Shown: piece by piece, positions 32,809 to 43,989 of the stretch
Layout: each line of letters begins with the position of its first letter
Position numbering within the stretch: position 1 is the first letter of the stretch
Source of the DNA: Allopontixanthobacter sediminis
GTDB lineage: Bacteria > Pseudomonadota > Alphaproteobacteria > Sphingomonadales > Sphingomonadaceae
DNA length: 64,000 nt
Direction of reading: 5' to 3'
NCBI RefSeq assembly: GCF_009828115.1
Contig: NZ_WTYL01000004.1
Coordinates: 62,001 to 126,000, forward strand
The notes under the pieces: model-generated
Databases searched by the model: none
The model's input: the letters and a program-made list of their open reading frames with translations, nothing else
Told to the model about the DNA's origin: nothing
Made by a program: the position numbers and the translations under genes

Positions 32809-34223
32809 GGGGCGCTTCACGCCATCCGGCTCTCGCAGCCCTGGCCGCAGCTGGCTTGGCGATGTCCAGCTGCACCGCCACCATCCCGCCGGCGCGCGGC
32901 CCGGCGGACCTTTCTCCGCCCGCCGAATATTACGCGGATTACCGGCCCGCTTCGGGGGATAGCGAATTGTGGTGGCAGGGGTTCACCGACCCGGTGCTCG
33001 ACCAGTTGGTGCAGGACGCGCTGGCGGATAATCTCGACGTCGCGGCGGCCAATTCGCGGCTGCGCGCGGCGAGGGCGCTGGTGGACGCGGAACAATCCGA
33101 CCTGCTGCCGTCCGCCGGGGTGAGCGGCAGCGTGGGCGGCGAAGCCGGCACTGCGGGGGACAGCGGCCTGGTTGCCGGGGCCGGGCTTTCAGCGCAACTC
33201 GATCTCGACTTGTCGGGGCGGCTGTCGGCGGAAGTGCAGGCTGCCGCGGCCAACGCGGCGGCGGCGGAGTATTTCCTCGCGGACCAGCGGCGGCTGGTGG
33301 CGGCGGCGGTTGCGGGCCAGTATATCGAACTGCGGCGGACCGGCGCGCGGCTCGCGCTGCTGGAGGAATCGACCGACTTGCAGCAACAGACGCTGCGGAT
33401 CGTGACGCTGCGGTTCGAAGCCGGGCTATCCGCCAATCTCGACGTACGCCGCGCGGCCGCGGATCTCGCGCAAACAAGGGCCCAGCTGGGCCTGCTGCGC
33501 CTGGCGCGCGCGCGCGCGGGCCACGCCTTGTCCGTGCTGACCGGCGACACACCGGGAGCGGTGGAGGAATTTGCCGGGCAGGACGCCGCGATCCCGGCCT
33601 ATGCGGGCGGTCCGCCGACGGGGGCTCCGGCCGACCTGCTGCGGCGCCGGGCGGACATCCTGGTGGCGGAAGCCGGCCTGGTGGAGGCCGCGGCCCGTGT
33701 CGGGGTGGAGCGGTCCGACTTGCTGCCCAATCTCGTGCTGCCTGCCAATCTGGTGCTGGGTGACGGGTCACTGGGCGGGCTGGTGTCCGATTTCTTCGCC
33801 ACAGTCGGCGCATCGCTCGATCTTCCGCTGTTCGACGGCGGGCGGCGGCGCGCTGAAATCGCGGCGGCGGAAGCGGAGGCCGACGCGCGGTTCTTCGAAT
33901 ACCGCCTGACCTTCCTCAACGCCTTGGCAGAAGTCGAGAATTCGCTGGTGGCGATCGACGCCTTCACCGATCGGAACACCGAATTGCGGCAGGCGATCGA
34001 AGAAAGCGAGACCGCGTTCGAACAGTCACGGGCGCTGTACCGCGAAGGGCTCGCCAGCTTGTTCGACGTGCTGGATGCGCAGCGCCAGTTGATCGCCAGC
34101 CGCCAGTCACTCATCGATAGCGAGGCCGACCTGGCCGCGTCGATCATCGCGCTTTACGCGGCGACGGGGGCCGACCCGGGGTCGACACCGATCCGTGCCA
34201 CGCTGCCGGTTACCGGCTCCTAA
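32805..34223 (+). CDS. TolC/NodT-family outer-membrane efflux lipoprotein of the RND system
   Basis: 472 residues with a lipoprotein signal (GLAMSSC, C23). It has the conserved WWQGFTDPVLDQLV segment, the LLRRRADILVAEAGL domain junction and the second OEP repeat (SLDLPLFDGGRRRAEI). It forms the outer-membrane channel for the RND pump. ATG 32805 overlaps the pump stop. Its TAA at 34221-34223 overlaps the convergent TpsB stop by four bases, so no intrinsic terminator separates the two transcripts. It is clearly diverged from the other TolC-like gene at 23662, so it is a separate module and not a recent duplicate. Confidence 0.93.
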   Translation: MRGASRHPALAALAAAGLAMSSCTATIPPARGPADLSPPAEYYADYRPASGDSELWWQGFTDPVLDQLVQDALADNLDVAAANSRLRAARALVDAEQSDLLPSAGVSGSVGGEAGTAGDSGLVAGAGLSAQLDLDLSGRLSAEVQAAAANAAAAEYFLADQRRLVAAAVAGQYIELRRTGARLALLEESTDLQQQTLRIVTLRFEAGLSANLDVRRAAADLAQTRAQLGLLRLARARAGHALSVLTGDTPGAVEEFAGQDAAIPAYAGGPPTGAPADLLRRRADILVAEAGLVEAAARVGVERSDLLPNLVLPANLVLGDGSLGGLVSDFFATVGASLDLPLFDGGRRRAEIAAAEAEADARFFEYRLTFLNALAEVENSLVAIDAFTDRNTELRQAIEESETAFEQSRALYREGLASLFDVLDAQRQLIASRQSLIDSEADLAASIIALYAATGADPGSTPIRATLPVTGS

Positions 34224-35863
34224 AACCGCAAGCCGACCTGCACATTGATCTTGGGCGACTGGTCTCCGCTTTCGTATCGGTCACCGGTCAGGGGCGCGGC
34301 TACTTCCAGGCCCATGTCGAGCGGGCCCATCTGCGCGCGCATCCCGCCGCCCGCCGACGCCAGCGACCCGTCGCCTTCGCCGGTGCCGATATTGTCGACA
34401 TAGCCCCCATCGACGAACCCGTAGAGCTGGAACCAGTCGAGCCACTGGTTCACGTCGCTGAATTCCTTGCGCAACTCGGTCAGGGCGAGGATCCCCTCGT
34501 CACCGAAGCGCTCGCTGAAATCGTATCCCTTGCCGAAATAGGGACCGCCGAGCGCAATCTCGTTCGGCGACAGCAGCGGACGCGAGGTGATCTGCCCGTT
34601 GGCCGCCAGGCGCATTCCGAAACCGCCGCCAGCGTTCAGGACGGTGTTGACCCAGGCGCTGACCTTGGTGAACTCCCCGCTGCCGTTTGAGCGCGAATTC
34701 AACGGGTCTCCGGTGCGGCTGGCATTAAGGACGCCGAGCCCTTGCGTCACTCCGATGCCCCCATAGACACGGCCTGCGCCAAGATCGTAATTTCCGCTGA
34801 AGCTGACCGTAGCGGTGACGATCCGGTCATCCTGGAACACGCCACTGTCGCCCGATTGTTCGTAAGCCAGATAGTCGAGTTCCGCATTCACCCACAGACT
34901 GCCGGCGCGGCTGCGTTTCAACGCATGTCCTGCAAACAGGGAAGCGTAGAGCGTCCGGCCACGGAAATCCCGAAGCCCGGAAAAATTATCCCAGCGGGTG
35001 CGCCCCGCCGCGCCCGATGCGCCGATGACGGTGCTGCCGTCCCCGAGCGTACGCGCATAGCGGGAGTTGAAATACACCAGTTCACTTGGTTGCAGCGCCG
35101 TGCTGATGAGCCGGGTGGTCAGCACATCGTCATCCGACAGCAAACCCGCGATGTCGTATTCAATCCTTGCGCGGATCGGACCGAAGCTCTCGGGGCCGTA
35201 ATTATCTGCCGCGGCATACCCGCTGATCGTGTCTTCCGAAACGTTCACCACCAGTACGCCGCGCCCGCTTTCGCGTTCGTAATTCACCGACTTGACGGTG
35301 ATCCCATGCAGGTCCCCCGCCAGTAGCAATTGCCGTTCGAGGATATCCGACTGCGCAGCATTGCAGCGCAATTTTTCAAGGATGGCGCGCAGGCGCTTGT
35401 TCTTCGAGCCGAGGACGCGGACTTCGTCGATCGGCCCCGGATCCAGCCGGACTGCGACCATGCCCATCCGGACCGATTGAGGGGGGATACTGGCGCTGGC
35501 AAACACGTAGCCCTGTTCGCGCGCGGCAGAGGACACCGCGGTCGCCAGCGCCTGCAGCGTTTCTTCGGTGGCCTCGCGCCCGATGAAATCCGCATAGCTG
35601 CCGGCAAGCGTCTCGGGGGCGATTTCCTGCGCGGTACCGACATGGACCGAACCGATGGTCACGGCGCTCAGAGCATCGGACGCACCGCTTGATGTTCCGG
35701 TCGCGGCTACCGGACCGGTGCCGACATCGACAGTCTGCTCAGGCGTGCGGCCGTCGCGGGGGCTCGCCACTGTTTCGAAGGGATTCGAAACCTGCTGCGC
35801 CGCTGCCGGTGACGCGAAATGACTGACGCCTAGGAAGACGGAAAAACAAGCAATGCGGCGCAA
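34220..35863 (-). CDS. TpsB-type outer-membrane transporter (ShlB/FhaC/HecB, Omp85 superfamily)
   Basis: 547 residues with a signal peptide (to AAAQQ). A plug/linker region, POTRA-like domains (about residues 65-210, including EQGYVFASASIPPQ and RVLGSKNKRLRAILEKL) and a 16-strand barrel ending in VQVGLRF are visible. Two-partner-secretion TpsB proteins export a large beta-helical TpsA exoprotein. The barrel loop L6 motif normally V/IRGF/Y is here FGKGYD (K445), replacing the usual arginine. No TpsA gene is in the window. The gene diverges from the FecR-repeat gene with a 172-bp gap. It could instead serve an unusual partner. Confidence 0.87.
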   Translation of the reverse strand: MRRIACFSVFLGVSHFASPAAAQQVSNPFETVASPRDGRTPEQTVDVGTGPVAATGTSSGASDALSAVTIGSVHVGTAQEIAPETLAGSYADFIGREATEETLQALATAVSSAAREQGYVFASASIPPQSVRMGMVAVRLDPGPIDEVRVLGSKNKRLRAILEKLRCNAAQSDILERQLLLAGDLHGITVKSVNYERESGRGVLVVNVSEDTISGYAAADNYGPESFGPIRARIEYDIAGLLSDDDVLTTRLISTALQPSELVYFNSRYARTLGDGSTVIGASGAAGRTRWDNFSGLRDFRGRTLYASLFAGHALKRSRAGSLWVNAELDYLAYEQSGDSGVFQDDRIVTATVSFSGNYDLGAGRVYGGIGVTQGLGVLNASRTGDPLNSRSNGSGEFTKVSAWVNTVLNAGGGFGMRLAANGQITSRPLLSPNEIALGGPYFGKGYDFSERFGDEGILALTELRKEFSDVNQWLDWFQLYGFVDGGYVDNIGTGEGDGSLASAGGGMRAQMGPLDMGLEVAAPLTGDRYESGDQSPKINVQVGLRF

Positions 35864-36035
35864 TTCACAACTCCATCGAAGACTGCCGCGGGTTAAGCTT
35901 CATTCCTTATGATTTCCTTAGCTTAGGTTCCGTTTAACCGGATATTCAGCGTAAAATTGAACGAGATCGTGAGGAGGGGGAGCGTAGAGAAGGCCTTGAA
36001 TTTGGATTAAAACGTGATTGCCGAAGGAATTGCCG

Positions 36036-37442
36036 ATGCGCAATTATGTCAAAGCTGTTGTTATTGCTGCATTTCTGTCTGCTGGTGCGGTCCACGCCGC
36101 TGCGCCCCAATGGACCCTGTCCGAAACGACCGGAAACGTTAATGTCTTGCGCGCAGGCGTTTCGAAAATCGCGGTCACCGGCAGCATCCTGCAACCCGGC
36201 GACGTGGTCGCGGCCGGGGCGAAGAGCCGGGCAGTGCTGGTGCGCGGAGAGGAATATGTCGCTGTTTCGCCCAACAGCCGCGTCCGCATCAACCAGCCCA
36301 AGGCCGAGGGCGGTGTCGTGCAGTTCTTCCAGGAGATCGGCAACGCCATCTTCCGAATCGACAAGAAGGCCACGCCGCATTTCGGGGTTGAGACGCCGTA
36401 TCTCGCCGCCGTGGTCAAGGGCACGACATTCAGTGTGACCGTCACCGACGTTGGCGCGGCGGTTCAGGTTACCGAAGGCGCGGTGCAGGTCGCGACCCTG
36501 GATGGCGGCGCCACACAGCTATTGCAGCCAGGAATGATCGGCATCGTCGATCGCGCCAAGCAATTCCGGCTGACCATCTCCGGTGCCCGGCCGCAGGTTA
36601 TCGATTCGCCCAACGCCCCGGCAGGAAGCAGCGAGACACCGCAGCCGATGGATGAGGCGACCCTTCTCGACATCGCATCCAGCGGTTTCGAAGGCACTAT
36701 CAGCGCCGCGATCGCCGAAACTCCCGTGCCGCTCGGCGTGATTACCAATGGGCTGGTGCACGGCGGCGCCGCCCCGGACACGGCAGTGCGGATGGCGTTC
36801 AACGACAACGCAGGCAACGACAACGCTGTGATAAATGGTGTTGCCGGAAAAGCTCCAGCGGACGGAAGAAACGGTGTCTTCGGCAACAACTCTGCCGAAG
36901 CCCGCGGACCTTCGGATGACAGTAATGAACCGGGCAACGGCAATGGCGGCGGCGAAGCTAATGGCGGGGCAGGCGACGGCCAAGGTAACGGCCAAGGTAA
37001 CGGCCAAGGTAACGGCAATGGCAACGGCAACGGCAACGGCAACGGCAATGGCAATGACGGCGGCGGTAATGAAGGCGGCCGTGATGGCGGGGACGGCGGT
37101 AACGGCAATGGGAATGCGGAAGGTGGCGGAAACGGTTCTGGTAACGACGGTGGCGGAAGCGGCGGAGACGGCAACGGTAACGGCGGGGGCAACGGCGGAG
37201 GCGGAGGCAACGGTGACGGCAACGGCGGCGCCAACGGCAACGGTAACGGTAACGGTAACGGTAACGGTAACGGTAACGGCGATGGCAACGGCACCGGCCA
37301 TGGCGGCGGCAACAAAGGCAACGGTAAGGGCAACGGCGGCGGAAATGGTACGGGGAACGAGGGCGGTGGCAACGGAGGTGGCGGCAACGGAGGTGGCGGC
37401 AATGGGGGCGGCGGCGGTGATAAAGGCAAGCCGAGGCCTTAA
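36036..37442 (+). CDS. FecR-domain protein with long Gly/Asn-rich repeat tail
   Basis: 468 residues from ATG 36036, preceded by GAAGGAA; an in-frame TTG at 36018 would only lengthen the signal peptide. The signal ends near HAAAP. A FecR domain (about residues 20-150) contains GDVVAAGAKSRAVLVRGEEY and FGVETPYLAAVVKGTTFSV. A middle region of ~120 residues has no recognised fold. From about residue 295 the chain is almost only Gly and Asn with some Asp, Glu and Lys, ending GDKGKPRP. No sigma-factor gene is next to it, so it is not a standard FecIR anti-sigma factor. A surface or periplasmic structural role is likely. It diverges from TpsB and precedes the CHASE2-EAL gene. Confidence 0.8.
   Translation: MRNYVKAVVIAAFLSAGAVHAAAPQWTLSETTGNVNVLRAGVSKIAVTGSILQPGDVVAAGAKSRAVLVRGEEYVAVSPNSRVRINQPKAEGGVVQFFQEIGNAIFRIDKKATPHFGVETPYLAAVVKGTTFSVTVTDVGAAVQVTEGAVQVATLDGGATQLLQPGMIGIVDRAKQFRLTISGARPQVIDSPNAPAGSSETPQPMDEATLLDIASSGFEGTISAAIAETPVPLGVITNGLVHGGAAPDTAVRMAFNDNAGNDNAVINGVAGKAPADGRNGVFGNNSAEARGPSDDSNEPGNGNGGGEANGGAGDGQGNGQGNGQGNGNGNGNGNGNGNGNDGGGNEGGRDGGDGGNGNGNAEGGGNGSGNDGGGSGGDGNGNGGGNGGGGGNGDGNGGANGNGNGNGNGNGNGNGDGNGTGHGGGNKGNGKGNGGGNGTGNEGGGNGGGGNGGGGNGGGGGDKGKPRP
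36978..37055 (+). repeat. Tandem repeats coding Gly-Gln/Gly-Asn units in the FecR-domain gene
   Basis: Three perfect copies of the 12-mer GGCCAAGGTAAC (36978-37013) are followed by seven hexamers GGCAAY (37014-37055). Unit lengths are multiples of three, so gain or loss of copies changes the protein length without a frameshift. Sequencing or assembly errors are also more likely here. Confidence 0.92.
37233..37280 (+). repeat. Second hexamer array (AACGGY) in the FecR-domain gene
   Basis: Eight consecutive hexamers AACGGC/AACGGT encode Asn-Gly units. Six adjacent copies are identical (AACGGT, 37239-37274), which suggests recent slippage or conversion. In-frame length variation is expected. 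Confidence 0.92.
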
Positions 37443-37514
37443 TTCGCAATCGGCTTTAGCTGCCGGTTAACCAAAAATAGAGCGGGCCGGGCTAAGTAAC
37501 GCGGCTAACCGAAT

Positions 37515-39860
37515 GTGGTGGTGCGCGCGTTGAAGATCTGGTTGCTTTCTTTCAAGCCATGGGAGGCCCGCCGCTCGGCCTTGGCCTGGGTGATCGCCCT
37601 GGTGTCCGCCGCGCTGATGGCGCTCACCGGCGTGGGCAACGAGTTGGAACAGCGGCTGCAGAATGTTCGTGCCGACCTTCTCGAACGTCCGGCTTCCGGC
37701 GAGATAGTCATCGTCGAAATCGACGGGAAATCGCTGCAGGCGCTGGACAGTTGGCCCTGGCCGCGCAGTTACTACGCCGATGCGGTAGACAAGCTGTCGG
37801 CAGCCGGAGCGGCCCAGATTGCTTTCGACGTCGACTTTTCCTCGGAATCGTCGCGCGAGCATGACGAGCGATTTGCATCCGCAATTGCCAATTCTGCCGC
37901 CAATGTCATCCTGCCTACGTTCCGCCAGGTGCGTTCCCCGGTCCAGCGTGCCTATGTCGAAAACCGGCCGATCGAAATGTTGCGGCAGCACGCTTTCATC
38001 GCCTCGGTCAATATCCACCCTGATGGCAACGGGCAGCTCAGCCGTTACAGTTTCGGCACCCGCACAGGAGGCATCGCGCGACCCTCCGTCGCTAGCATGC
38101 TGGCCGAGCGGTCCGGAACCATCGAACGGACCTTCGCGATTGACCAGTCGATCGACCCTGCATCGATCCCGCGGCTGAGTTTCTCTGACTTGCTGGCAGC
38201 GCGCTCGCCGCCGGCAGGGTTGACCGGGAAAAAGGTGCTGATCGGTGCTACTGCGATCGAGCTGGGCGACCGTTATTCTCTGCGGCGGTTCGGCGTTACC
38301 CCGGGCGTGGTGATCCAGGCGCTCGCGGCCGAGACGCTTATCCAGAACGCCGACATCCCGCACCTGGGCGGTTTCCTGCCGCTCGGCATCGCTTTCAGTT
38401 CGATGTGGCTGCTCGTGCAATTCGCCCATGTGTCGCGGCGCAAACGGGGGGTCGCCGTGGGGGCGGCGGGGACCGGGGTCGCGCTGTTCGGCTCGGTGCT
38501 GGTACTCGAATATTACCTCGTCGCTACCTTTGCCGGGGTCCCGGCCTTATTCTTCCTGCTGTCGTTCGCTGGCCTGCACAAATTTTCGAGCACGATCGGG
38601 GAGCTTGAAACGAGCCAGATGTCGAACGAAGCCAGCGGCCTGCCGAATGAAGTTGCGTTGCAGGAGTTCATCGCCCGCCATGGTCCGGGTAACATCGTCG
38701 CGGCGCGCATGGCGGACTTCACCGACCTGTTGGTGCTGACCGACCGCGCCGCCCGCCGCGACCTGTTCGGCAATTTGAGCGCCCGGCTGGGTTTTCTTGC
38801 CGAAGACGAACAGATTTTCCATCTCGATGCGAACACCGTCGGATGGCTGGTGAAAAAGGATTACCAGGACGACATTCCCGGTCATTTCGAGACCGCTATG
38901 GCGTTGTTCCAGGCGCCGTTCATGGCGGGGACGCAAAGGGTCAAGATTGGCGCGACCTTCGGCATCAGCAACCGTTCGGTCGACCAGGCGAAAGTAGCGG
39001 CCCAGCAAGCCCGCGTACAGGACCGCAAATGGTGCTGGGATGATGCACAGGCGGCCAGCGCGATCGGCCTGAAGCAGATCCTGCTGGTCGATCTGGAAGA
39101 GGCGATCCGCAACAACCAGCTGCACGTGGTGTATCAGCCGAAATGGAATCTCCACACCGACCGGCTGCAGGGGTTCGAGGCGCTGATCCGGTGGGAACAT
39201 CCGGTCTATGGCGGGATCGGTCCGGACGTATTCATTCCGGTAATCGAGAAATCGGGCCGGATCGACAGCCTGACCCTGTTCGTCATCCGCCGCACGCTGT
39301 CCGACCTCGCGCAGTGGGACCGTCAGCGTCCCGGCCTGGGCTGCGCGGTTAATATTTCCGCGCGACTGCTGGGGGACAGTGCCTTCGTGCAGCAGGCCAT
39401 CGCCTTGGTGGAGCAATCCGAAGTGGCCAACCAGCAGATCACTTTCGAGGTTACCGAAACCGCTGCGCTCGACGATCCCGAACTGTCTACCGTGGCCCTC
39501 GGCAAGATCCGTGATACCGGCATCAAGATCTCGATCGACGATTACGGCACCGGCCAGTCGACCATGAGCTATCTCCAGCGGCTGCCGGTCGACGAAATCA
39601 AGATCGACCAGAGCTTCGTCAAGACGGTAACAACCAACCGGGGAAACCGGGTGATGGTGGAATCGACCATCGAGATGGCCCATGCCCTCGGCCTCACGGT
39701 AGTCGCCGAAGGTATCGAGGATGCGGAGTGCATGCGTCTGCTACACACGCTGCGCTGCGACATCGCCCAGGGGTGGCATATCTCCAAGCCGGTTTCCGCG
39801 GAAATTATCGCTTCCCGGTGGATCGCCGATGGTGACGAACAGGCGCGGCTGATGGCGTGA
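37515..39860 (+). CDS. CHASE2 sensor - degenerate GGDEF - EAL cyclic-di-GMP phosphodiesterase
   Basis: About 781 residues, start one of the GTG codons at 37515-37521; no good ATG exists. After a first membrane helix comes an extracytoplasmic CHASE2 domain (VIVEIDGKSLQALDSWPWPR to about residue 270, FSDLLAARSPP, GKKVLIGATA). Three membrane helices follow (about 275-355), then a GGDEF-like domain without the GGDEF signature, then EAL (from about 515). Catalytic features are present: E555 in GFEALIRWEHP, CAVNISARLLGD, FEVTETA, D675-D676 in DDYGTGQS, K696 in DEIKIDQSF and VVAEGIED. It should hydrolyse cyclic-di-GMP in response to an envelope signal. It follows the FecR-repeat gene by 72 bp on the same strand and may be co-transcribed. 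Confidence 0.9.
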   Translation: MVVRALKIWLLSFKPWEARRSALAWVIALVSAALMALTGVGNELEQRLQNVRADLLERPASGEIVIVEIDGKSLQALDSWPWPRSYYADAVDKLSAAGAAQIAFDVDFSSESSREHDERFASAIANSAANVILPTFRQVRSPVQRAYVENRPIEMLRQHAFIASVNIHPDGNGQLSRYSFGTRTGGIARPSVASMLAERSGTIERTFAIDQSIDPASIPRLSFSDLLAARSPPAGLTGKKVLIGATAIELGDRYSLRRFGVTPGVVIQALAAETLIQNADIPHLGGFLPLGIAFSSMWLLVQFAHVSRRKRGVAVGAAGTGVALFGSVLVLEYYLVATFAGVPALFFLLSFAGLHKFSSTIGELETSQMSNEASGLPNEVALQEFIARHGPGNIVAARMADFTDLLVLTDRAARRDLFGNLSARLGFLAEDEQIFHLDANTVGWLVKKDYQDDIPGHFETAMALFQAPFMAGTQRVKIGATFGISNRSVDQAKVAAQQARVQDRKWCWDDAQAASAIGLKQILLVDLEEAIRNNQLHVVYQPKWNLHTDRLQGFEALIRWEHPVYGGIGPDVFIPVIEKSGRIDSLTLFVIRRTLSDLAQWDRQRPGLGCAVNISARLLGDSAFVQQAIALVEQSEVANQQITFEVTETAALDDPELSTVALGKIRDTGIKISIDDYGTGQSTMSYLQRLPVDEIKIDQSFVKTVTTNRGNRVMVESTIEMAHALGLTVVAEGIEDAECMRLLHTLRCDIAQGWHISKPVSAEIIASRWIADGDEQARLMA

Positions 39861-39876: not shown

Positions 39877-41154
39877 TCAGGGGAGCGCGTCCGCTCCGCC
39901 GGACAGACTTTCCCGTTCGAAAAGTTGTTCCGTCTGCATCGCAGTCAGGCGCATCCTGCCAAGTTTGCCGCCGCTGAGGTCGATATCGCTAAACGGCCAG
40001 CTTTCCGGATTGCCGGCATAACGCAGCAGGAACGAACGCGCCGTCTGCAGGCTGCGGCCATCGGACAATTGACTGTTCCACAAATCGCGGTCCAGGCATT
40101 CCCCGATAGTCGCCAGCTTCGCCGCGCCGATTACCACGAAATGGGAATAGTGCCAGCTGCGGGTACGCTTCAATTCCTCGATAAACCGTCCCTGGCGGTC
40201 CATCTGCGCCCCCAAGCGGAAATCCAGAAAGCTGTCGACTACACTTCGGGCGGTTCCCTCAAGACCGGCAAACAATGCGAATTGGGCGAGGTAGAAATCA
40301 TAGAACACGCCGTGGTTGTTGGTTTTCAGCATCTCGGCTTCGCCGTTTTCGCTGGTCGCCATCCACATCGCGAAATCGGCATACCATTGGCGCAGGCCGG
40401 CCAGTTCCTCACGGGAAAGGGCACCGGTCGGCTCGATGAGTCCGACCGCTTCGGCGATGGTCGCCAAATCCGAGGCTTCGATGATCCCTTCGGCGCGGCC
40501 ATCGACCCGGCCCGGTATGCCCTGCGCGAAATTCATGTTCGGGGACATCCGCGTCGCGGGATCGAGAAACCACCGGCGAACCAGTTCAGCCGCTCGTGAA
40601 GAATAGCGTTCATCCCCCGACACATACGCGGCGAGAGACAAAGCCCGAACATCGCGCGCCAGATTGCGCAACCTGTCCTTGTCGAACTCCGGCCCGTTAC
40701 GCTGCGGGTTAACTTCGCCGTCGCGGCGGATATAGGGCGTGCCATCTGCCTTCTTCGGGTCGGGCCACCAATAGGGTCCAATCGACGCGTATTCGTTCGG
40801 GCTGGCACCGGGAACCGGCTGCGGCTTGTCCGTCACACTGTAGAGCGGCCCGCCGATCGCCTTGTCGCCGGCATCCGTTACAGCCTTGACCGCGGCCGGG
40901 TCCTGCCGGATCGATTCGAGCCATTGCGGACGCCATAGGAATGTTCGTCTCCCCTCGAAATCGGCAGCGTACCCCGCGCTGCCGCGGCAACGCGGTGCGC
41001 CGTCGGCCAGCACCAGCGCCGGGACCTTGGCGCCGGATTCCTGCGCTGAAAGCCCCGCTGGCATCGCGAACAGCAACATTGCGGCGAGCCCGCGGGCGGC
41101 ATGTCGGGCCTTGGAACCAGGCCCCAGGTCGCTGCGAGCGCCCGGCCGCCCCAT
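39877..41154 (-). CDS. Alginate-lyase-superfamily polysaccharide lyase (PL5/PL38-like)
   Basis: 425 residues with a signal-like N terminus ending near GLSAQ; an internal ATG at 41079 would give a more compact signal. The (alpha/alpha)-barrel Alginate_lyase family (PF05426) is recognised by YASIGPYWWPDPKK with its following PYIRRDGEVNP, the central TNNHGVFYDFYLAQFALF (N279, N280, H281) and RTRSWHYSHF with candidate catalytic Tyr/His. Members cleave polyuronates such as alginate or glucuronan by beta-elimination. The gene starts 2 bp after the TonB receptor stop, so receptor and lyase form an operon. Which uronate it cuts is not decided by sequence alone. Confidence 0.84.
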   Translation of the reverse strand: MGRPGARSDLGPGSKARHAARGLAAMLLFAMPAGLSAQESGAKVPALVLADGAPRCRGSAGYAADFEGRRTFLWRPQWLESIRQDPAAVKAVTDAGDKAIGGPLYSVTDKPQPVPGASPNEYASIGPYWWPDPKKADGTPYIRRDGEVNPQRNGPEFDKDRLRNLARDVRALSLAAYVSGDERYSSRAAELVRRWFLDPATRMSPNMNFAQGIPGRVDGRAEGIIEASDLATIAEAVGLIEPTGALSREELAGLRQWYADFAMWMATSENGEAEMLKTNNHGVFYDFYLAQFALFAGLEGTARSVVDSFLDFRLGAQMDRQGRFIEELKRTRSWHYSHFVVIGAAKLATIGECLDRDLWNSQLSDGRSLQTARSFLLRYAGNPESWPFSDIDLSGGKLGRMRLTAMQTEQLFERESLSGGADALP

Positions 41155-41156
41155 GG

Positions 41157-43943
41157 TTAGAACTTGCCCCGCAGACCGACAAAGAACCGCCGCCCCGAAT
41201 AATCGGCCTGCGCAAGGCTGTCGCGCGTCGGACGATAGAACAGGTTGGGCTCGTCGAGCAGGTTTAGTGCCTGAAGCCGCAACTGGACGCTTCGGGTCAG
41301 GTCCACACTGGCGGAAAAGTCGAGAAAATCCTGCGCGGCGGCGAAGCGGTTCTGTTCGGACCGGAACGGTTTGAAATAATCCGAACGGATCTTGTAGGCG
41401 AGCCGCGCATTCCAGCCGGAGCCTTCATAGAACACCGTCGCGTTGGCGGTGTGCCGCGAATATCCGGGCAGATTGGCCGGTTCGGTCAAATCCGCTATCG
41501 GTGTGCCGGCAACCACTTGCGGATCGGGGAATTCGAAATTCGAATCCGCGAAATTGTAACTTGCCTGAAGCCCCAGCCCGAAGTCGAACTTGTGCTGTGC
41601 GTTGATTTCGAACCCGAGCAGATGGCTCTTGTCATCCGAATTGACCGTCCTGCCGATGATCACTTCGGTCGGGGTGCCGTCCACGATCAGCGTCAGCGGC
41701 GAGACATCGGTGCGGAAGCCGGTGCTGAGCCGTTTGGCATAAAGCGCGATCGCCAGCGAAGTGGTCGGCGATGCGTACCATTCGAACGAAACATCCGCAT
41801 TCCAGGATTTCAGAGGCTCCAGGAACGGGTTGCCCGCGGCGCTGACGATGCTCCCGATATTGCCCAGATCCGCCTCGGTATCGAAACTGAGGCCTGCTGA
41901 CATAGCTTCCTGTTCGGGCCGGGCGATCGCGCGATAGGCCGCGAAGCGAAGCAGCTTGTCGAAATCCAGTTCGAAGGAGATGTTAGCGCTCGGCAAAACA
42001 TTGGTGAAGCTGTTGCGCTCTACATTCGCGACCGGGGTTCCGATCTGGGTGATCACGATAGTGTCGGGGTCCGGCCCGGGAGCGGTGGCCAGTTCGGAGC
42101 TGAGGCCAATCGAAGTGATATCGGTCCGCACAATCCGCAGCCCGAAGTTCCCCGTTGCCGGCGTGCCGAACACATCGCCATCGAAATTGGCCTGCACGTA
42201 ACCCGCGTAGGTTTTCTCGACCACGTCCGTATCATCCGCCGATAGGGTGGACCCGGTCGGCAGACCGGCGTCGAGACTGCCGGTGAGGGCGGCGTACAGC
42301 GCCCGCGCATCCCACCGTGCAAAGGTCAGCCCTTCAATCGGGGTATCGGCCCCCTGGTACAGATCCTTGACCAGGAACGTATCGAGCCGCGCCGCAACCG
42401 CGCCGTCGCTGGCGTAATTACCCGGCACCAGCGGGACCTCGGTGTCGATGCCGTCATCATGGAAGCGGTCGCGGTTGCCGTAACGGACACCTGCGTCGAT
42501 CGAATTGAAAAATCCGTCCAGCTCGTATGTCCCGTCCAGCCGCACCGCGAAGATGGAATCGTCGATGTTTTCCAGCCGGCGCCGCGCCCGCGCGCCTTCG
42601 TTGTAGATATCGTGATTGTCGAGATCGAACTCCAGCCCGGTGTTGTTTTCGACCGCGGAAACATCGGTCAGTACCAGGCTCGGCACAGTGAGACCGCGCG
42701 TGTCGATTTCGTAATTCACCCGCTGGTTGGTGCGGATGCGCATGTCCAGCTCGTCCTGCCTGCGCTTGGTCTGCGAATAGCCGACATCGAGCGCCATCGT
42801 CAGGCGGTTGCCGGTCCACGCTACATTTCCGCCTAGACCGATATATTCCTCGGTCCGCTTGCGCCAAACGCTCTGGTTTTCCAGCCGCGAATTCCCGGCC
42901 CATGCCAACAGCGCGCCGGAGGGCGAAATCTCGATCGGCGCAATCCTGCGGCGGCCGTCGGCGATCACCAGGTTCTGGCGCTCCTCGATATCGTCGCGGT
43001 AGGAATATTGTCCGTCCAGATTGATATCCAGGCTGGATGTCGGTTGCCACTGGATGTTCGCCATCACCGCATCGCGGTCCGCCTCGCTCGCTTGTGCGCG
43101 GTAAATGTACTGGTTGGAGGCGAAATAGAGCGGCGAGGGTCCGGTGGGGTTGCCGTCCGCATCTTTCCGGTAGGAACAATTGCCGCTATCGCCCAGCGTG
43201 TTGCACGGGTTGAACGTCGAACTGGTGGTGTAGATGTCTTCCGGCGCGGTATCGCGGCGGAGCTGTCCGCCAATGGCGATGCCGACATTGCCGAACTGGT
43301 CGATGTATGAGGCGGTGAGCCTTTGGCTGAATGGGGACCCGTCATCCACCCGGTCCTCGTAGTCGCTGTAACCGAGCAGACCCTGCACCTGCAGCCGGCT
43401 TTTGCCGTAATCGAGCGGACGGAGCGTCTGCAACTCGATGATCCCGGAAACGCCGCCTTCGATGAAACTTGCCTGCTGCGACTTGTAGACGACCACGCCG
43501 TTTAGCAGTTCGGAAGGAAACTGGCCGAAATTGACACCGCGTCCGTCACTGCCCGAGGAAATCTCGCGCCCGTTGAGATAGGATGCGCCGAGAAAGGCGC
43601 CGAGACCGCGGATTGAAAGCTCCGAAGCGCCGCCCTTGAAGCGGTCGGAGGTCACTCCGACCACGCGTTCCAGCGTCTCCGCCACCGACAGGTCGGGCAG
43701 ATCGCCGATGTCTTCCCCGACAATCGCATCGCCGATTACATTCAGCTGCCGCTTCGCCTCGAGCGAATTTTCAATCGAACGACTGATTTCGCCAGTCACC
43801 ACAATCTCGCCATTCTCTGTATTCTCAGCAGCCGGCCCTACCGGCGCGTCCTGCGCGAGCGCGGATACAGGTGCCATTACTGCCGCGGCCGAGGCCAGCA
43901 GGACCAGCCGCTGAGCCGCCACCTTTTTCCTGGAATTTCGCAT
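41157..43943 (-). CDS. TonB-dependent receptor of the lyase operon
   Basis: 928 residues from ATG 43943, with GGGAG about 10 bases upstream; the longer frame to 43970 lacks this. Signal peptide to SALAQ, then a TonB-box-like GEIVVTGE and the plug (DLPDLSVAETLERVVGV, LSIRGLGAFLGASYLNGREI). The barrel ends with FVGLRGKF. It is of the long TonB-receptor class common in sphingomonads and Caulobacter for plant and algal oligosaccharides. Together with the following lyase it probably imports uronate oligosaccharides. Two CCGG-centred operator-like sites lie 47-82 bp upstream of the start. Confidence 0.93.
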   Translation of the reverse strand: MRNSRKKVAAQRLVLLASAAAVMAPVSALAQDAPVGPAAENTENGEIVVTGEISRSIENSLEAKRQLNVIGDAIVGEDIGDLPDLSVAETLERVVGVTSDRFKGGASELSIRGLGAFLGASYLNGREISSGSDGRGVNFGQFPSELLNGVVVYKSQQASFIEGGVSGIIELQTLRPLDYGKSRLQVQGLLGYSDYEDRVDDGSPFSQRLTASYIDQFGNVGIAIGGQLRRDTAPEDIYTTSSTFNPCNTLGDSGNCSYRKDADGNPTGPSPLYFASNQYIYRAQASEADRDAVMANIQWQPTSSLDINLDGQYSYRDDIEERQNLVIADGRRRIAPIEISPSGALLAWAGNSRLENQSVWRKRTEEYIGLGGNVAWTGNRLTMALDVGYSQTKRRQDELDMRIRTNQRVNYEIDTRGLTVPSLVLTDVSAVENNTGLEFDLDNHDIYNEGARARRRLENIDDSIFAVRLDGTYELDGFFNSIDAGVRYGNRDRFHDDGIDTEVPLVPGNYASDGAVAARLDTFLVKDLYQGADTPIEGLTFARWDARALYAALTGSLDAGLPTGSTLSADDTDVVEKTYAGYVQANFDGDVFGTPATGNFGLRIVRTDITSIGLSSELATAPGPDPDTIVITQIGTPVANVERNSFTNVLPSANISFELDFDKLLRFAAYRAIARPEQEAMSAGLSFDTEADLGNIGSIVSAAGNPFLEPLKSWNADVSFEWYASPTTSLAIALYAKRLSTGFRTDVSPLTLIVDGTPTEVIIGRTVNSDDKSHLLGFEINAQHKFDFGLGLQASYNFADSNFEFPDPQVVAGTPIADLTEPANLPGYSRHTANATVFYEGSGWNARLAYKIRSDYFKPFRSEQNRFAAAQDFLDFSASVDLTRSVQLRLQALNLLDEPNLFYRPTRDSLAQADYSGRRFFVGLRGKF

Positions 43944-43989
43944 TTTGATTCTCCCTTTATGACGCAGCATGAAGACTGCGCGTCCGAAT

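Follow-up and report, generated by a model that had tools for sequence, protein, structure and literature searches.

For their response to an external protein, the CHASE2 cyclases of Sinorhizobium meliloti require the outer-membrane barrel NsrA (PMC13001267, PMC7529298). NsrA holds its FecR, TPR and barrel parts in a single protein, and the output of the CHASE2 adenylate cyclases CyaK and CyaD1/D2 is cyclic AMP. In the Burkholderia BiofilmReg operon and in PA4035-type pairs, a LysM-FecR protein accompanies a CHASE2 histidine kinase, making FecR plus CHASE2 a known signalling unit (PMC5192318). Here we analyzed a 64,000-nucleotide stretch of Allopontixanthobacter sediminis DNA (contig NZ_WTYL01000004.1, positions 62,001 to 126,000; hereafter the window), which carries a gene for a TpsB-type transporter, a divergent gene for a FecR-domain protein with a Gly/Asn tail and, following the latter, a gene for a CHASE2-EAL enzyme (Table 1). 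This trio probably represents a system, not described before, that connects the cell surface with cyclic di-GMP (c-di-GMP). TpsB proteins are outer-membrane export pores whose usual cargo is a giant TpsA protein, and EAL enzymes destroy the messenger c-di-GMP.

NsrA/CHASE2 signaling is the nearest precedent and the system that the trio would most resemble in its working. Both combine an outer-membrane barrel with a CHASE2 enzyme of the inner membrane, and the NsrA system reports an outside signal. On pSymB of S. meliloti 1021, a 1219-residue FecR-TPR-barrel open reading frame lies directly upstream of a CHASE2-cyclase; it agrees with NsrA in size, barrel position and CHASE2 neighbor and on these grounds is probably NsrA. 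FecR-barrel/CHASE2-cyclase pairs also occur in the window's own family, Sphingomonadaceae. Unlike NsrA, the trio has a TpsB barrel, a separate FecR protein with a tail, and c-di-GMP breakdown as its predicted output; its genes are separate and no TPR was detected with Pfam. The trio thus looks like a split version of an NsrA-type system, with barrel, FecR and CHASE2 enzyme as individual proteins. With BiofilmReg and PA4035-type pairs it shares a secreted FecR-domain protein encoded next to a CHASE2 sensor enzyme, whereas those systems have a LysM domain, a kinase output and no TpsB. With the type Vb systems FhaC/FHA, CdiB/CdiA and CdrB/CdrA it shares a transporter with two POTRA domains and a 16-strand barrel, but it has no TpsA or two-partner secretion (TPS) domain, and the partner is a FecR-domain protein. 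An earlier note on this DNA held that the combination had no described function; in agreement, the literature searched contained no description of it, and nothing joining a CHASE2 or FecR domain with ShlB, or a retention module with FecR. As a separate observation, FecR-TPR-barrel or FecR-barrel proteins of about 1100-1200 residues lie directly beside CHASE2-cyclases at L269:2395-7880, L270:1487-6895 and L271:1296-6313; two of the three are 36% identical, and one is matched along its length by S. meliloti pSymB.

The gene neighborhood is conserved across Sphingomonadales, where the earlier note had proposed to look for it, and well beyond that order. At a threshold of 45% identity or more, a FecR orthologue is present in 13 of 120 genomes of the family, the window's own included. 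A divergent TpsB accompanies it in all 13, and CHASE2-EAL is next in line in 12; in genome G023, the contig stops inside the FecR tail, and another contig starts with a CHASE2 match. We then considered the best 80 loci from a wider scan of genome contigs with the FecR protein, nearly all of them from named Sphingomonadales. A divergent TpsB stands next to FecR in 77 of these, one of the remaining three loci beginning inside FecR. CHASE2-EAL is present in 67, or all but one of the 68 loci that extend far enough (12 of the 13 loci lacking it are short contigs). The enzyme gene lies downstream of FecR in 51 loci, behind TpsB in 15 and in a convergent position in one; that it switches sides yet stays clustered points to a functional unit. 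Further afield, nine genomes from seven further families (L216-L224) and ten rhizobia-like loci (L248, L249 and L251-L258, with L258 stopping before the EAL gene) hold the whole trio or almost all of it, and a Bosea plasmid carries genes annotated ShlB, FecR and EAL. In all, the trio was found in about ten other alphaproteobacterial families, while the only match outside Alphaproteobacteria in a phylum-wide sample was weak and without the trio. Conservation across so many genera shows that the neighborhood is not a chance arrangement.

All three genes are intact and lie where the earlier note had placed them, and their products match Pfam families above the curated cut-offs, with scores of 61.9 (ShlB) and 40.6 bits (POTRA_2) for TpsB, 35.3 bits for FecR, and 116.9 (CHASE2) and 233.8 bits (EAL) for the enzyme. 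The window TpsB is a genuine member of its family. Its AlphaFold model (predicted local distance difference test, pLDDT, 84) displays two beta-alpha-alpha-beta-beta units corresponding to tandem POTRA domains, followed by a 16-strand barrel, and the protein aligns along its length with CdiB (6wim, E 8.7e-32) and with FhaC in profile matches against the PDB. The loop-6 motif of RGY/F type is also present, with the consensus GRGYDFSER and KGY in the window copy. In a maximum-likelihood tree built from 31 trio TpsBs plus 25 further TpsBs of the family, TpsA-linked ones included, the trio proteins occupy a single side of a branch with a support of 99/100. At one locus (L188:5672-7603), two FecR-tail genes stand in tandem next to a single trio TpsB.

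The link between TpsB and FecR is visible in the FecR linker. The linkers of trio FecR proteins diverge save for about 12 residues with the consensus [SDE]-L-x-x-x-T-[GND]-G-L-V-x-G (in short form SLxxxTGGLVxG). The window motif, PLGVITNGLVHG, has a profile score of 21.0, reached by none of 200 shuffled sequences. The profile was trained on Sphingomonadales and matches 77 of 80 FecR proteins from that order, a set that overlaps the training set; FecR proteins from elsewhere provide the independent test. Among these, the motif score is higher in TpsB-linked FecR proteins than in TpsB-less loci (Mann-Whitney p 7e-6), and the strict pattern occurs in 19 of 20 TpsB-linked proteins versus 0 of 15 TpsB-less FecR/CHASE2-EAL-type loci (Fisher p 5e-9), where shuffles would yield about 1 and 0.3, respectively. 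At two loci (L136 and L193), a FecR with the motif has no adjoining TpsB, and a trio-type TpsB is found elsewhere in the genome. Among genomes with a motif-less FecR, seven (G078, G403, G204, G205, G249, G642 and G440) gave no TpsB match at all, G265 has a TpsA-linked TpsB, the match in G277 is only weak, and that in G313 is ambiguous and interrupted. The presence of this motif in TpsB-associated FecR proteins is a new observation, and the simplest reading of the sequence pattern is that the motif contacts TpsB. In FhaC, extended amphipathic stretches of the substrate are bound by POTRA2 (PMC5422565), and a POTRA groove would accordingly be the likeliest site.

These data also bear on the notion that TpsB is a linked passenger gene and that FecR and CHASE2-EAL alone make up the system. 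FecR/CHASE2-EAL duos without TpsB do occur in several families, as this explanation would have it; nevertheless, 77 of 80 Sphingomonadales loci have kept TpsB, it is retained in other orders too, the trio TpsBs form a clade of their own, and the FecR motif goes with the presence of TpsB, which makes a passenger very improbable. In G313, at L263, a trio-like TpsB is broken by a stop codon and may be a decaying copy; the FecR of this genome is without the motif.

As the earlier note had stated, the window TpsB has no TpsA at its side: a search with PF05860 (TPS domain) found no match near it. The genome contains two TpsBs and one TPS-domain protein, a 2907-residue TpsA at C1:335436, directly downstream of the second TpsB and behind a protein that we call CHAT-like by resemblance. 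This row of CHAT-like protein, TpsB and TpsA (L002:3821-17521 on C1) is the canonical two-partner system of the genome, so that an orphan TpsA served by the window TpsB, which the earlier note had named as part of what would refute its proposal, is rejected for this genome. Throughout the family's 13 trio genomes, each detected TpsA likewise adjoins a different TpsB, and six trio genomes (G045, G052, G056, G060, G069 and G106) gave no PF05860 match, the trio TpsB being their sole TpsB. Because no TPS-domain partner is found, the trio is not a canonical two-partner secretion system. It could still be that the TpsB cargo is a substrate encoded elsewhere, either a strongly divergent TpsA-like protein or another one, and that FecR/CHASE2-EAL merely regulates it. 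Some TpsAs of the family reach no more than 20-34 bits with PF05860, and a substrate that has diverged far could therefore escape detection, and CHASE2-cyclases do occur in canonical TpsB-TpsA clusters (L107-L113). However, every TpsA detected in trio genomes adjoins another TpsB, and the FecR motif tracks TpsB; we regard this explanation as improbable. In the family genomes concerned, genes for a CHAT-TPR protein and for a CHASE2-guanylate cyclase often lie just upstream in the canonical cluster, which is a second link of CHASE2 enzymes to type Vb secretion.

The FecR domain is modeled mostly at pLDDT values of 90 or more and matches the periplasmic signaling domain of PupR (6ovk) with Z 15.2 and an anti-sigma factor from Parabacteroides (4m0n) with Z 14.7. 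The FecR alignment profile gave no match to PDB sequences. The N-terminal half of FecR also has a weak fold likeness to the cell-surface anchoring domain 5ix9 (Z 6.2), which could reflect a common arrangement. Apart from an N-terminal signal-like segment (residues 4-23), the protein has no hydrophobic segment, and it is predicted to be exported to the periplasm through its signal peptide. The fold is that of FecI-FecR-FecA cell-surface signaling, but the trio has neither an anti-sigma domain nor a TonB receptor, and no sigma factor is encoded among the trio and the scanned neighbors. The genes place an exported FecR-domain protein next to a CHASE2 enzyme and, FecR plus CHASE2 being an established signaling pair, the FecR protein is likely, by analogy, the sensory partner of CHASE2-EAL. 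The surface-display or matrix role proposed in the earlier note would therefore likely share its place with, or give way to, a sensory one. Elsewhere, at L078:1092-2970, a CHASE2 gene adjoins the gene for a LysM-FecR protein that contains a Gly-rich stretch and has a C-terminus of PEP-CTERM-like type.

The tail of the window protein contains 40 GN dipeptides, compared to 23 in shuffles, and its coding DNA overlaps tandem repeats of 6, 12 and 15 bp. The earlier note proposed that the repeat protein could be a cargo or anchor. A link of this protein to TpsB is supported by the motif; the Gly/Asn repeat is not the linked part, because TpsB-less relatives keep such tails and the tails of other trio members are Pro/Glu-, Asp/Lys- or Ala-rich. 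On the same grounds, the Gly/Asn tail was rejected as a TpsB-linked cargo signal. Non-canonical two-partner secretion could nonetheless be at work, with the FecR-tail protein replacing TpsA as TpsB cargo, serving as a surface or matrix protein, and CHASE2-EAL separately tuning c-di-GMP. The conserved divergent TpsB-FecR pair, the motif that tracks TpsB, the disordered and mostly Cys-poor tails that would thread easily, and the six trio genomes with no other detectable substrate all fit this explanation, as does the recognition of TpsB substrates in extended conformation by POTRA grooves (PMC5422565). Against it, the FecR domain has a periplasmic-signaling fold and not a TPS beta-helix, TpsB-less relatives retain both the FecR-tail protein and its CHASE2-EAL partner, and tail composition is not conserved, unlike what is expected of a structural adhesin. 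We therefore hold such secretion to be rather unlikely.

We also compared the trio with the Lap system (LapA/LapG/LapD) and CdrA retention, in which c-di-GMP is likewise tied to a protein held in the outer membrane and to which the 5ix9 likeness might point. The trio differs in its pore, its catalytic EAL domain and its lack of LapG: Peptidase_C93 had no match in the window's genome or in 12 other trio genomes. With no NCBIfam retention-module match either, and the 5ix9 likeness being weak, LapG-type retention was dropped.

In the third protein, CHASE2 is flanked by hydrophobic segments (residues 20-44 and 312-355), and the stretch between CHASE2 and EAL is degenerate and GGDEF-like. The EAL, NIS, FEVTE, DDYGTG, KID, VVAEG and QG residues are conserved in an alignment of 12 trio members, including the catalytic E, N, E, E, D, D, K, E and Q of c-di-GMP phosphodiesterases. 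Given this conservation, the enzyme likely has phosphodiesterase activity. The same genome encodes a second CHASE2 protein, a 676-residue CHASE2-class III cyclase, away from any TpsB (L272:3184-5211 on C2).

We give about even chances to the reading that the trio encodes one trans-envelope relay to c-di-GMP. Its signal peptide would bring the FecR protein into the periplasm, where it would dock on TpsB through its motif, plausibly as an extended strand on the POTRA domains, and its disordered tail would enter or cross the barrel toward the cell surface. The FecR domain would remain periplasmic, where it would bind and control the CHASE2 domain of the enzyme. A change at the surface (the tail being occupied, pulled or released, or TpsB being open or closed) would then alter EAL activity and the local c-di-GMP level, the tail acting at the surface as a probe or plug and not as a TpsA-like adhesin. 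The role this gives to a TpsB without TpsA, namely to recognize the short FecR motif and thread the disordered tail across the outer membrane as a surface probe whose state sets CHASE2-EAL activity, is a possibility that we advance more tentatively than the relay itself.

Several points weigh against the relay or its details. TpsB-less FecR relatives mostly keep Gly/Asn tails, so the data do not require passage of the tail through TpsB. Four TpsB-linked FecR proteins (L224, L173, L178 and L184) are without a clear motif, and the proteins compared are related: TpsB state changes just about four times on the FecR-domain tree, and the motif is never discordant in the 1-2 supported independent pairs, too few for sign-test significance. 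The structure models cover single chains, so binding of the motif to TpsB is putative, and the control exerted on the EAL domain may go in either direction.

CHASE2 and FecR domains are widespread, but to our knowledge few signals or partners of CHASE2 have been identified. With the trio come CHASE2 partners that can be tested and a 12-residue motif amenable to mutation. If the relay is real, type Vb transporters would have been reused for signaling with a TpsB partner that has no TPS domain, and many soil, plant-associated and aquatic alphaproteobacteria would possess a route from an outer-membrane event to c-di-GMP.

Table 1. Features of the TpsB, FecR and CHASE2-EAL genes in the window.
Feature	Position	Strand	Evidence
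TpsB-type outer-membrane transporter, 547 aa	34220..35863	-	Pfam ShlB and POTRA_2; CdiB/FhaC profile match; AlphaFold model; trio-specific clade
POTRA domain 1 of TpsB, aa 69-142	35438..35659	-	Pfam POTRA_2; present in 50/50 trio TpsBs
KGY of GGPYFGKGYDFSER, loop-6 RGY-type motif of TpsB, aa 445-447	34523..34531	-	Alignment; family consensus FGRGYDFSER
FecR-domain protein, 468 aa: signal peptide, linker, low-complexity Gly/Asn tail	36036..37442	+	Pfam FecR; alignments
FecR beta domain, aa 24-190	36105..36605	+	AlphaFold model; Z 15.2 to 6ovk
TpsB-linked motif PLGVITNGLVHG, aa 232-243 of FecR protein	36729..36764	+	Motif profile score; tracks TpsB presence
Low-complexity Gly/Asn tail, aa 266-468 of FecR protein	36831..37439	+	72% G+N; tandem DNA repeats
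CHASE2 - degenerate GGDEF - EAL membrane enzyme, 781 aa	37515..39860	+	Pfam CHASE2 and EAL; hydrophobic segments
CHASE2 extracytoplasmic sensor domain, aa 30-282	37602..38360	+	Pfam
EAL phosphodiesterase domain, aa 526-759	39090..39791	+	Pfam; catalytic motif residues conserved

For the FecR gene, ATG 36036 is a more probable start than TTG 36018, and the CHASE2-EAL gene starts with GTG at 37515 or 37518. Beyond the trio, an alginate-lyase-family enzyme adjoins a TonB-dependent receptor at positions 39877-43970 of the window, probably forming a small polysaccharide-use locus of its own.

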